Assembly (NCBI RefSeq): GCF_003931915.1
Contig: NZ_RSAA01000017.1
Span: 124,001 to 188,000, forward strand
Reading direction: 5' to 3'
Source: Saccharopolyspora rhizosphaerae
Lineage (GTDB): Bacteria; Actinomycetota; Actinomycetes; Mycobacteriales; Pseudonocardiaceae
Length of the DNA: 64,000 nucleotides
How positions within the stretch are numbered: position 1 is the stretch's first letter; the number at the start of each line of letters is the position of its first letter. Under the pieces are notes generated by a model. The model saw only the letters and a program-made list of their open reading frames with translations, was not told where the DNA came from and did no database searches. A program made the translations under genes and the position numbers. Shown in pieces: positions 28,695 through 32,571 of the stretch.

Positions 28695-30251
28695 GTGCGT
28701 CGCACCATCCACCGGGCCGGAGCTGCGCTGCTGCCGTTGCTGCTGGTGGTCGCCGGATGTTCGGTCGGTCCGTCGCAGCGTCCCGCGGTCGCCTACCACG
28801 ACAGCGAGCAGCAGGTCGCGCCTGCACCGCAAGCTCCGAAGCCGCAGCCGGTGCCGCCGCTGGGCTCCGCACCGACGGACTCGCTGAACTGGCAGGACTG
28901 CACCGAGCAGACGCGCGCCGAGCTGGGGGCGCTGCCGCCCGGGATGACGTTCTCCTGCTCGCGCCTGCTGTCCACGCTCGACGCGCCGGAGGCCCCGGAG
29001 CAGGGCACCGCCCGCAACTCGCTGATCCGCACCGGGTCCGGCCGGGTGCCGCTGGTCGTGGTCGGTGACATCGGCGGTGAGCCCGGCACGACCTTCGCCG
29101 CACGGCTGGCGACCCAGCTGCCGCCGGAGATCCGCGGCACCTTCGACATCGTCGGCATGGACCGTCGCGGCACCGGCGAGTCGGAACCGGCCGACTGCGT
29201 GCCACCGCAGCAGCGCGAGCAGATCGTGGGCTTCGACCCGCGCGCCACCCAGCGGGAGGAGCTCGACGAGCTGCTGGAGGCGGTGCTGGCGGGCAGCCAG
29301 GAGTGCCTGCTCAAGCTGGACGAGCGGCTGCAGGCCTACGACACCTGGCGCACCGCCTCGGACCTGGAAGAACTCCGCCTGGAACTGGGAGTGCCGAGGC
29401 TGCACGCGATCGGTCGCGGCGAGGCCGGGCGACTGCTGACGACCTACGCCGAGCGCTACCCCGGCGCGGTGGGCCGGTTCGTGATCGACGGCGCGCCGGA
29501 CCCGACGCGCGATTCGATGGGGCAGTCCGAACAGCAGGCGCAGGCTGCCGAGCAGGTCTTCGACGTCTTCGCCGCCGATTGCCTCCGGCGGGCCTGCCCG
29601 CTCGGCCCGAACCCCCGCCAGGCCGTGAGCGACCTGGTGGAACGCACTCGCACGGCTCCGCTTCCGGCCCAGGGCACGACGGTGCCCGCCGGTCGGGTGA
29701 CGCAAGCGGTGCTGCAGGGCCTGTCCGACCGCAACAGCTGGCCGGCGCTGGCGGAGGCGCTCGCCGCGGGCTCCCGGGGTGACGGTGCCCGCCTCGCCGC
29801 GCTCACCGCGCCGCAGGTCGCACCGCAGGGCGTGAACCCGCCGTGGCTCGACGGCGACCTCATCACCAGCTGCAACGACACGACGTTGCGCGTTCCGCCG
29901 CAGCGCAGCAGCGAACTCGCGCAGGACTGGGTGCACCGCTTCCCGCTGTTCGGCGGGGTCGCCGTGCAGCGCGTGGTGTGGTGCGGTTCCTGGCCGGTGC
30001 CGCAACAACCGCTGCCGACACCGCGCCGTGCGGACCTACCGCCGATCCCGGTGATCACCACGGCTCACGACCCGAAGGCGCTGGCCCTGGGCACCGATCA
30101 CCTGGCCGACGAGCTGCCGACGGGGGTGCCGATGCGCTGGCAGGGCGCCGGGCACGGAGCGATCGCGCGCTCGACGTGCATCACCGACGCCGTCAGCCGG
30201 TTCCTGGTCCGAGGGGTGCCACCGACGGAAGGCATGGCCTGCCCGGAGTGA
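28695..30251 (+). CDS. TAP-like alpha/beta-hydrolase lipoprotein with degenerate active site
   Basis: Exported lipoprotein of 518 residues related to tripeptidyl aminopeptidases. Signal peptide ends in lipobox VVAGC (Cys22). The hydrolase core is recognisable (FDIVGMDRRGTGESEPADC), and the late acid and base are kept (D459 in AHDPK, H487 in GAGHGA). The nucleophile elbow reads IGRGEAG at 239-245, so residue 242, where GxSxG should have Ser, is Gly. The oxyanion loop is also altered (VVGDIGGEPGT). It sits where Rv2672 sits in M. tuberculosis. Probably non-catalytic, for instance peptide-binding. GTG 28695 has AGGAG 6 nt upstream. Confidence 0.87.
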   Translation: MRRTIHRAGAALLPLLLVVAGCSVGPSQRPAVAYHDSEQQVAPAPQAPKPQPVPPLGSAPTDSLNWQDCTEQTRAELGALPPGMTFSCSRLLSTLDAPEAPEQGTARNSLIRTGSGRVPLVVVGDIGGEPGTTFAARLATQLPPEIRGTFDIVGMDRRGTGESEPADCVPPQQREQIVGFDPRATQREELDELLEAVLAGSQECLLKLDERLQAYDTWRTASDLEELRLELGVPRLHAIGRGEAGRLLTTYAERYPGAVGRFVIDGAPDPTRDSMGQSEQQAQAAEQVFDVFAADCLRRACPLGPNPRQAVSDLVERTRTAPLPAQGTTVPAGRVTQAVLQGLSDRNSWPALAEALAAGSRGDGARLAALTAPQVAPQGVNPPWLDGDLITSCNDTTLRVPPQRSSELAQDWVHRFPLFGGVAVQRVVWCGSWPVPQQPLPTPRRADLPPIPVITTAHDPKALALGTDHLADELPTGVPMRWQGAGHGAIARSTCITDAVSRFLVRGVPPTEGMACPE

Positions 30252-30283
30252 TCCCGCAACACCCCGGGCAAGCCACCGCCGCT

Positions 30284-30379
30284 TCAGCCGCAGCTGGAGC
30301 AGCAGCCACAAGAGGGACCGCTGCAGCTCGAGCAGCAGCTGCAACCGCCCTGGTGCGGTGCTTCGGTGCGGACCACCAT
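30284..30379 (-). CDS. 31-residue cysteine-rich micropeptide
   Basis: Short gene with an excellent GGAGGTCGGAG ribosome site ending directly before the ATG at 30379 and a TGA stop at 30284-30286. After a 12-residue lead (MVVRTEAPHQGG) the peptide is almost only Cys, Ser and Gly: two copies of a CxCCxxC motif (CSCCSSC at 13-19, CGCCSSC at 24-30) joined by SGPS. Eight cysteines in 31 residues suggest metal binding, or the core of a heterocycle-modified peptide. No modifying enzyme is nearby. Lies downstream of the DUF4389 gene on the same strand, convergent with the TAP-like gene. Function unknown. Confidence 0.68.
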   Translation of the reverse strand: MVVRTEAPHQGGCSCCSSCSGPSCGCCSSCG

Positions 30380-30400
30380 CTCCGACCTCCGATCGGTGTG

Positions 30401-30412
30401 GGTACCGGTACC
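30401..30412. promoter_or_regulatory. 12-bp palindrome upstream of the Cys-rich peptide
   Basis: GGTACCGGTACC is a perfect palindrome (itself a direct repeat of GGTACC), ending 21 bp upstream of the peptide's ATG and just before its Shine-Dalgarno. It is well placed for a repressor or as a short 5' leader hairpin. Confidence 0.45.
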
Positions 30413-30526
30413 TCTTGATGTTCCTCGTCGCTCCAGCGGGTGGAACACCGCTGCTAGAGCGAACCGTCATCACCCGCAGGGGCCCGGTTCCGCTGCGATC
30501 GGTGATCGGCGCCGGTCGCAGGTCGA

Positions 30527-31300
30527 TCAACCGGCGTAGTCGAACTGGTGCTGGTAGGGGTAGGGCTGCTGCATCGACGACGCAGCGGTGTTGCCGATGA
30601 CCGCCAGCGCGCCGAGCACGATGAACACGATCAGCACGACCCGGCCGCCTTGGGACATCACCAGCGGACTGGTGCCGGCCGCCACCTTCGCCGGTTCACC
30701 ACCCTCGCGGGTGTCGCCGAAGAGGCCCTTCGGATAGGCGCCGGTCAGCATGTAGAAGTAGGCGTTGGTGCGCATCGAATAGCGCAGCGAGGCCGCCGAG
30801 GCGTCGAAGATCGGGCGCGGGTTGCGCCCCAGGACCAGGATGATCAACCACAGGAAGAATGCCAGGACGGCGAAGCCGTAGGAGACCACGGTGGTCACGA
30901 TCGCCGCGGGGATCACCAGGACGAGCCGGAACAGCACGGCCCAGCGGTTGAGCGCACCCGGACGGATGTCGACGTCGACGGGGAACTGCGGATCGCCGAC
31001 CACGAACGGCGGGTAGCGGTCGACCAGCAACCACGCGGACGCTCCCACCCGGGTGTGGTACGCGACGTAGAGCACCAGGAACGCGGAGATCCACTCGGGC
31101 AGCCGGCCCTGCACGAGCGCGGCGAACCACCCGATGATCGCCACCACGGCTGCCGCGATGCCCAGCGCCCACAGCACGATGAAGTGCGGGACGAGCAGCA
31201 GGAGCCGCAGCAGCACGGTCCAGCGGCGGTGCCGCTCCGGCGGGGAGATCTGCAGCTCCGGCAGGAACCGACCGCCCTCGACTCCGGCTGACTCGCTCAT
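30527..31300 (-). CDS. DUF4389 domain membrane protein
   Basis: Membrane protein of 257 residues with five or six hydrophobic helices. The family repeats are visible: RRWTVLLRLLLLVPHFIVLW at the start and LNRWAVLFRLVLVIPAAIV in the middle, plus LPEWISAFLVLYVAYHTRVGA. Function is not known for the family. The ATG at 31300 follows AGGAGGGCGGCG. It may be co-transcribed with the Cys-rich peptide gene 147 bp downstream. Confidence 0.85.
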   Translation of the reverse strand: MSESAGVEGGRFLPELQISPPERHRRWTVLLRLLLLVPHFIVLWALGIAAAVVAIIGWFAALVQGRLPEWISAFLVLYVAYHTRVGASAWLLVDRYPPFVVGDPQFPVDVDIRPGALNRWAVLFRLVLVIPAAIVTTVVSYGFAVLAFFLWLIILVLGRNPRPIFDASAASLRYSMRTNAYFYMLTGAYPKGLFGDTREGGEPAKVAAGTSPLVMSQGGRVVLIVFIVLGALAVIGNTAASSMQQPYPYQHQFDYAG

Positions 31301-31432: not shown

Positions 31433-31726
31433 ATGCAGCGCCGTGAACCGGACGAGCCGGCTCGCTTCGGCGACCTTGAGGACCTGGACCACGAGGACCC
31501 CGAGGTCAGGGCGTTCGCCGAGCACCGCGCGCGGATGGACCGCCCGCACTCCGAGGCGACCGTCGAAGGCATGCTGCGCGGGGTGGACGAGTTCGCCCAG
31601 AGCGCCAACCGCACCGGCGGCCACCGCAGGCTGGTGGCGGTGTCGGTCGTGGTGCTGATCCTCTTCGGCGTGCTGTTCACGGTCTGGAACGCAGTGCTCT
31701 ACATGCTCAGCACCTTCTTCGGCTAG
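31433..31726 (+). CDS. Small C-terminally anchored membrane protein, unknown function
   Basis: 97 residues: an acidic N-terminal two-thirds (FGDLEDLDHEDPEVRAFAEHRARMD) followed by GHRR and one transmembrane helix (LVAVSVVVLILFGVLFTVWN), so the bulk should face the cytoplasm. ATG 31433 has GGTGGG 3 nt upstream, rather close. I do not recognise the family. Followed by 845 bp without a supported gene. Confidence 0.75.
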   Translation: MQRREPDEPARFGDLEDLDHEDPEVRAFAEHRARMDRPHSEATVEGMLRGVDEFAQSANRTGGHRRLVAVSVVVLILFGVLFTVWNAVLYMLSTFFG

Positions 31727-32019: not shown

Positions 32020-32141
32020 CAACCAACCCCGTGACCAGGGAAGATGCACCCGGCTTTCCCAGACGGTTGCGCGTGTTGGTGGGGTGGTGCGCGCATGTCG
32101 AGAGGGCAGGCGCAGCCCGTGTGTCGCGGGGGCGGGCGCTC

Positions 32142-32293
32142 CGGGTGCCGGGAGGCAGCCGCGGCCCGGATCTCGGGAGGCAAGCCGCGGCCCGGGTGTC
32201 GGGAGGCAGCCGCGGCCCGGATCTCGGGAGGCAAGCCGCGGCCCGGGTGTCGGGAGGCAAGCGTGGCCCGGGTGTCGGGAGGCAAGGCGCAGA
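32142..32293. repeat. 25/26-bp tandem repeat array
   Basis: Six contiguous copies beginning at 32142, 32167, 32193, 32218, 32244 and 32269. Two subtypes alternate: one begins CGGGTGTCGGGAGGCA, the other CGGATCTCGGGAGGCA, both ending in GCCGCGGCC or a variant. The first two and next two copies form a 51-bp super-unit repeated with a single difference. A looser GGCRCAGCCCGTG pattern continues to about 32530. Frames through it give low-complexity Gly/Arg/Pro/Ala peptides, so I treat it as non-coding. It ends about 40 bp before msrB. Confidence 0.9.
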
Positions 32294-32571
32294 CGGTGTG
32301 GCAGTAGGGCGGGCACAGCCCGTGTCGCAGGAGGGCAGGCACCGGGGACTAGGCGCAGCCCGTGCCAGGAGGCCGGGCGCGGCCCGTGTGGCGCGTAGCA
32401 AGGCACAGCCCGCGGGACGGGGCGGGCAGGCACAGCCCGCGTGACCGGGGACCAGGCGCAGCCCCCGTGCCAGGAGGCGCGGGGCAGCCCGTGGGACGGG
32501 AGGGCGAGCGGGGGCCGTGTGACGGGGCGGCCGGTTTAGCGATTGATCTTCATCCGGATTAGCGTGGAAGC

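Follow-up and report, generated by a model that had tools for sequence, protein, structure and literature searches.

A conserved eight-cysteine peptide gene of Pseudonocardiaceae and its possible role as a minimal metal-thiolate peptide

Small cysteine-rich peptides and metallothioneins

Among the described systems that come closest to the eight-cysteine peptide presented here, the SmtA protein is much longer and the small fungal metallothioneins have a motif made of CxC repeats. MymT, likewise a small cysteine-rich protein of actinobacteria, is set apart by its length of about 53 residues and by a different spacing of its cysteines. The cysteine-rich leader peptides of mycobacteria are also short actinobacterial open reading frames (ORFs) and act in cis on sulfur genes, whereas the gene described here mostly has a convergent neighbour downstream.

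The metallothionein of Pseudomonas adopts an SmtA-like structure with a Cys9His cluster (PMC7387436). With this SmtA/Pseudomonas type (PF02069) the present peptide shares its small size, its richness in cysteine and, probably, a metal-thiolate cluster, but it has eight cysteines and no conserved histidine and so departs from this Cys9His composition. MymT is a mycobacterial copper metallothionein (PMC7387436, PMC8131098), and deletion of mymT is described as causing minimal copper sensitivity (PMC8131098). In fungi, small metallothioneins with seven cysteines bind about six Cu, a small metallothionein with eight cysteines is known from Heliscus lugdunensis and that of Yarrowia forms Cu4Cys8-9 (PMC13107397). 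The fungal proteins of Neurospora crassa, Agaricus bisporus and H. lugdunensis resemble the present peptide in being tiny, in having seven or eight cysteines and in using thiolate ligands. The present one is bacterial, with two CxCCxxC blocks and an [ST]GP[SG] element, and the likeness is one of form, with no homology seen and with its metal binding predicted.

The preliminary description of this DNA had known of no described family with such a pattern, and this held: NCBIfam, PHROGs and PDB sequences gave no match to the peptide, and no Pfam hit was obtained up to E 10 for four members. In the same way, no description of the peptide was found among the titles and abstract openings listed, a scope that leaves aside subscription papers and preprints. 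PF02069 was matched at E <= 0.001 in none of 61 genomes, including that of the window (the whole stretch of 64,000 nucleotides of Saccharopolyspora rhizosphaerae DNA that was analysed); the search was accompanied by 14 control genomes, with a match in Synechococcus among them. The peptide would work like the SmtA-type proteins but, by this profile comparison, falls outside their family, and since PF02069 was missing from 61 of 61 genomes, the SmtA-type niche may be open.

The peptide gene and its locus

A 31-codon gene with a GGAGG ribosome site, an ATG, a stop and eight cysteines in two CxCCxxC blocks had been proposed, and it was confirmed on the minus strand (Table 1). The ORF starts with ATG, ends with TGA and translates to MVVRTEAPHQGGCSCCSSCSGPSCGCCSSCG. 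It lies in the gap between the gene of a convergent TAP-like alpha/beta hydrolase, which ends at 30251, and a same-strand gene (30527-31300) that encodes a DUF4389 protein. No tRNA (ARAGORN) and no Rfam family at gathering score was found in the window. Past the stop codon, a GC-rich inverted repeat lies in a 78-nt stretch with a fold of -41.6 kcal/mol, an energy taken without a shuffle baseline. This repeat, which has no T-run, is a possible two-way terminator; a terminator scan returned none. Elsewhere in the window, two tandem arrays (32096-32290 and 32341-32469), with units of 25/51 nt and 26-27 nt, sit between a small ORF (31436-31726) and the SelR (msrB) gene.

Table 1. Positions of the peptide gene and of the sequence elements around it in the window
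Feature	Position	Strand	Remark
Eight-cysteine peptide gene, 31 codons	30284..30379 (stop codon included)	minus	intact in 22/22 genus genomes
GGAGG ribosome-binding site	30386..30390	minus	GGAGG, GGGAG, GAGG or GGAGT before the ATG in 22/22 genus genomes
GGTACCGGTACC palindrome	30401..30412	.	not conserved; in 1/22 genus genomes, the window's own
AGCGGTGT block	30445..30452	minus	begins 73 nt upstream of the ATG
Dyad CGCT-N5-AGCG, candidate binding site of a regulator	30449..30461	minus	conserved arm and spacer-5 dyads
GC-rich inverted repeat past the stop	30241..30269	.	overlaps the convergent hydrolase gene at its 3' end

Anatomy of the peptide

About 12 kb were fetched around each of 60 chosen hits, and the eight-cysteine pattern was present in 54 of these loci. 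The six loci without it comprise three outsiders of the family and L111, L114 and L115, which on later reading are divergent members. The 54 loci encode 51 distinct peptides of 21 to 36 residues, whose starts were picked by ribosome-site score; the start of L110, the one with 36 residues, is doubtful. Their core consensus is C-[SGN]-C-C-x-x-C-[ST]-G-P-[GS]-C-G-C-C-x-x-C, in which two four-cysteine blocks are joined by an [ST]GP[SG] turn. All eight cysteines are invariant among the 51 peptides but are fixed by the selection pattern itself, while G9 and G13 are invariant without being fixed by it; the proline is found in 45 of the 51.

The core is composed almost only of Cys, Gly, Ser, Pro, Thr and Asn. 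Cysteine makes up 29% of the residues over the 51 distinct peptides, aromatic residues are absent from 48 and histidine occurs anywhere in 13, none of it conserved. The stop codon follows the core directly in 27 peptides and one residue later in the other 24. Before the first cysteine, a leader of 3 to 18 residues varies freely in length and is reduced to three residues in 16 of the 51. Export is unlikely, because a strongly hydrophobic stretch was observed in the leader of just one of the 51 peptides.

Divergent members, recovered as profile matches with no pattern imposed, have seven or eight cysteines, with CxCxC or CC.C in place of the first CxCC. In L407, L391 and L392 (genomes G098 and G036, genus g16), a seven-cysteine relative has the leader MIKRLLKVVLRHG before its cysteine core; this leader is cationic and partly hydrophobic and is absent from the other members read.

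Distribution across genomes

When the window peptide was searched against 61 genomes, all 22 genomes of the window's genus matched (E 1.3e-14 to 2.7e-6), as did 10 of 15 other Pseudonocardiaceae genomes at E < 0.01; the five remaining hits in the family and those in other families were weaker and left uncounted. Thirty loci taken from this search all have an open frame with ATG. In the 22 genus genomes a ribosome-site motif is accompanied by a shared downstream sequence context, so these genes are syntenic orthologues.

A 22-row profile matched at E <= 0.01 in 109 of 150 Pseudonocardiaceae genomes, covering 42 of 46 genera, with one match per genome in most of them. The weakest of these 109 matches were inspected in part and a few may be spurious; for instance, the match in G187 has a stop inside, and that in G075 lies at a different place from the member later read there. 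A 42-row profile was used to re-score 27 genomes and gave 17 rows, of which 13 are members and four are not, judging from their translations. Divergent members were found in this family in six of 20 genomes that were empty by the 22-row profile (G024, G036, G061, G071, G093 and G098). Two genomes, G028 and G095, have two gene copies each, in two contexts. The paralogue pairs, L085/L086 in G095 and L078/L120 in G028, have the cores MGGCSCC... and MGTCGCC..., the second being in the hydrolase neighbourhood.

Outside Pseudonocardiaceae, only weak matches were seen and none of the six that were read contains the peptide. At the level of the class, six of 394 genomes matched at E <= 0.01, two of them Pseudonocardiaceae and four weak; three of these weak outsiders (L117-L119) contain no such peptide over 12 kb, and the fourth (G557) was left unread. 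At the level of the order, 36 of the 39 matching genomes (of 298) are Pseudonocardiaceae, and the outsiders G601, G666 and G701 lack the peptide in the 6 kb read of each. The initial search step caps the candidates scored in each genome, and carriers outside the family that are rare or divergent may therefore have been overlooked. Carriers among the matches listed include Lentzea kentuckyensis and Kibdelosporangium persicum, both Pseudonocardiaceae, and plasmid sequences gave no match to the peptide. The K. persicum contig stretch has 7960 of its 40-mers in common with genome G108 of the family and is thus the same DNA, which places it in Pseudonocardiaceae.

Selection on the reading frame

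The eight-cysteine DNA pattern has a single occurrence in the window and none in 3.84 Mb of order-2 Markov surrogate sequence. The bare pattern is common in public genomes, where the matches listed are mostly poly-Cys simple repeats. Since it is not rare there, it is the conserved frame that carries the case for the gene. Across 85 distinct core DNAs, pN/pS comes to 0.27 in frame, compared with 0.42 in one antisense frame and 1.3-1.7 in the other four; all four glycine codons are found at both invariant glycines, and both cysteine codons in every cysteine column. Cys and Gly are fixed by the pattern with which the 85 cores were selected, and a second count was for this reason made on genus columns that are not fixed: over the eight columns left free by the search, pN is 0.12 and pS 0.35. 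In addition, DNA identity within the genus is 90% in the core, 67% at -80..-20 and 48% at -160..-100 upstream.

The preliminary description had made the reality of the gene depend on relatives that keep the frame and the cysteines. Such relatives were looked for and found, both features being kept in 22 of 22 genus genomes. On these sequence comparisons, purifying selection is acting on the peptide reading frame and the ORF is a genuine small-protein gene, which is presumably translated in vivo.

Upstream elements and transcription

A perfect palindrome just upstream of the ribosome site had been thought to suggest control. The palindrome GGTACCGGTACC is indeed present, and a role in control was rejected since it is kept in one of 22 genus genomes. 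A better conserved element, kept in different gene neighbourhoods, lies further upstream, where the window reads CGCT-N5-AGCG followed by GTGTT (30445-30461). Of 54 upstream regions, 29 contain the motif [AG]G[CT]GGTGT, compared with a Markov-resampled mean of 1.6 and a maximum of 6 over 100 runs; a relaxed version of the motif, followed by TANCGT at a distance of 19-23 nt, was found at 14 of the 54 loci (resampled mean 0.04).

The left flank of the block often completes a dyad, CRCT-N5-AGYG. Its right arm with GTR was present in 64 of 86 distinct upstream regions (22/22 in the genus, 42/64 in others), and 28 of these 64 arm carriers have a perfect spacer-5 dyad (17/22 in the genus, 11/42 in others). 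No perfect dyads at spacers 2-4 or 6-9 occur among the arm-carrying upstream regions. Confidence in the dyad is lower than in the AGCGGTR block, because most dyads come from the window's own genus and are not independent events. A second upstream element (GCRA...CATG), a block like ACATAGCGA-N2-TCGGCATG noticed by eye directly before the dyad in L102, L103, L105, L108, L121 and L124, was counted at five to six of the 54 loci, against resampled means of 0.1-1.3, too few to be claimed.

Judging from its spacing to TANCGT and from the roughly 73 nt that separate it from the ATG, the conserved element would lie near -41, a position used by some activators. A sigma-70 promoter scan found none; at the expected -10 the window reads GAACAT, not TANNNT, and has no canonical -10 there. 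When two mismatches were allowed, a regulon search gave about as many hits as the reversed-pattern control. The exact 19-letter element occurs once each in nine of 150 genomes, just upstream of the peptide gene in six and elsewhere in three (L418, L420 and L424), and no wider regulon sharing it was found in this exact form over the 150 genomes. The element has been assigned to no metal-sensor site. The motif of WhiA is given as GACAC (PMC3781837, PMC4850268), and the GTGTC half of the element is its reverse complement. A WhiA site is a weak lead only, as this motif is very common and bound by a monomer, the window reads GTGTT and many loci are without it.

Genomic neighbourhood

The hydrolase gene is convergent and downstream in 30 of the 54 loci, being adjacent in 29, the window included, and behind another gene in L120. 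In other genera, oppositely directed Cpn10/Cpn60 chaperonin genes were nearby in 5/54 loci, and an oppositely directed FMN reductase gene in five as well, or six counting L124. A methionine-synthase-like gene was nearby in three loci and is downstream in the same direction in L085 and L094. In the remaining loci, the peptide gene stands beside unrelated genes. The MsrB (SelR) gene is 2.2-2.6 kb off in the window, and its cluster was present in 18 of the 54 loci. In L105, a cysteine dioxygenase gene (PF05995) runs towards the peptide gene in convergent direction, at about +139 to +673 from the first cysteine codon.

Twelve neighbour proteins were scanned against Pfam and the rest were clustered or read by eye. 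No recurrent operon partner was seen in the 54 clustered loci or among the neighbours of 16 loci read by eye, and no metal exporter, chaperone or metal sensor was recognised among the neighbours scanned or read. No peptide-modifying or transport gene recurs over the same loci, and no cyclodehydratase was present among seven window proteins scanned.

Possible functions of the peptide

The product would be a minimal cytosolic metal-thiolate peptide, a metallothionein-like buffer or detoxifier with Cu(I) slightly favoured, a proposal to which we give about an even chance. The gene, with its own upstream element, encodes a product that most probably stays in the cytosol, where the eight thiols of the two four-cysteine blocks would wrap a few soft metal ions into a thiolate cluster. 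Transcription would probably begin 30-35 nt or so ahead of the start codon, with the aid of a putative regulator bound at the conserved upstream element and responding to a signal of its own. In the broad sense of the term, the peptide has the composition of a metallothionein, being small, cysteine-rich and poor in aromatic residues, and the plasticity from CxCC to CxCxC or CC.C is easier to reconcile with thiolate clusters than with the fixed geometry of a disulphide or a cofactor. The minimal metallothionein already proposed in the preliminary description is the role that appears to fit best, with metal binding itself a prediction. Zn(II) or Cd(II) would also be possible; the tilt to Cu(I) comes from the thiolate-only ligands and from the precedent of small fungal Cu(I) metallothioneins (PMC13107397). 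The lower weight of the dyad leaves the standing of this metal-thiolate reading unchanged, because the reading makes no use of it. Weighing against the reading are the neighbours scanned or read by eye, among which no metal exporter, chaperone or sensor was recognised, and the upstream element, which was assigned to no metal-sensor site and to no wider regulon. Even a true metallothionein might show a weak phenotype, given that loss of mymT had little effect (PMC8131098).

The function may well turn out not to be metallothionein-like, and the near-universality of the gene in a single family would agree just as well with a housekeeping role of its thiols or with the binding of a protein partner. 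Eight thiols in so short a peptide could serve as a cytosolic redox buffer against reactive species (peroxide, NO, electrophiles) or carry an Fe-S cluster, rather than store metal ions. The chaperonin, FMN reductase and MsrB genes found nearby would agree with such a role, but they are never recurrent operon partners and the shift between CxCC and CxCxC is ill-suited to a fixed cluster; we consider this unlikely, with an appreciable chance left to it. The strongly kept GP turn and CGCC block, the single match in most matching genomes and the conserved upstream element would in turn suit a Zn-stabilised knuckle that binds a protein partner and tunes, for example, a regulator or RNA polymerase. 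A peptide with a surface of almost only Gly, Ser and Cys, with no conserved charged or hydrophobic interface and with a leader of freely varying length, speaks against such binding, and this role is distinctly unlikely.

In the window's species, the Cys/Ser-rich core does stand C-terminal to an N-terminal leader, as would be expected of the heterocyclised peptide that had been offered as an alternative. With a leader of three residues in 16 of the 51 peptides, no recurrent modifying enzyme beside the gene in the loci clustered or read and a core that barely varies, this alternative is disfavoured and a modified-peptide precursor of the thiazole, lanthionine or sactipeptide type is very improbable. 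The chances are smaller still for an attenuator, in which a leader peptide would sense cysteine and act on the gene behind it. Such a leader would likewise be a short cysteine-rich ORF, and the peptide gene is followed by a co-directional gene in a minority of loci, such as the methionine-synthase-like gene of L085 and L094. An attenuator would be without a target in 29 of 54 loci, the window included, because the next downstream gene is the convergent hydrolase gene; moreover, conservation spans the whole core and not the cysteine codons alone. Finally, GC-rich and repetitive codons, together with the poly-Cys repeats that carry the bare pattern among the public matches listed, could point to a chance ORF or a structured RNA rather than a protein. 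This is practically negligible in view of the empty surrogate, the frame-specific selection, the lack of any Rfam match at gathering score and the ATG, ribosome site and cysteine codons kept in 22 of 22 genus genomes.

Significance

The metal-thiolate peptide proposed here may belong to an undescribed, family-defining class of bacterial metal-cluster micropeptides, with a dedicated regulator site and a near-core presence in a whole actinobacterial family; we put this forward tentatively, as a view with somewhat less than even prospects. If true, its 21-residue members, which occur in several genera, would rank with the shortest known metallothionein-like proteins. The gene is present in most of Pseudonocardiaceae, and none of the libraries searched contains a model of its family, probably on account of its length of only some 21-36 codons. 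The conserved upstream element offers a direct route to the regulator and hence to the signal. As a thiolate metal buffer, the peptide would lower the size limit for bacterial metallothioneins, serve Cu(I)/Zn(II) chemistry as a small scaffold of natural origin and fill the place of the SmtA type, which is apparently absent from the genomes searched.
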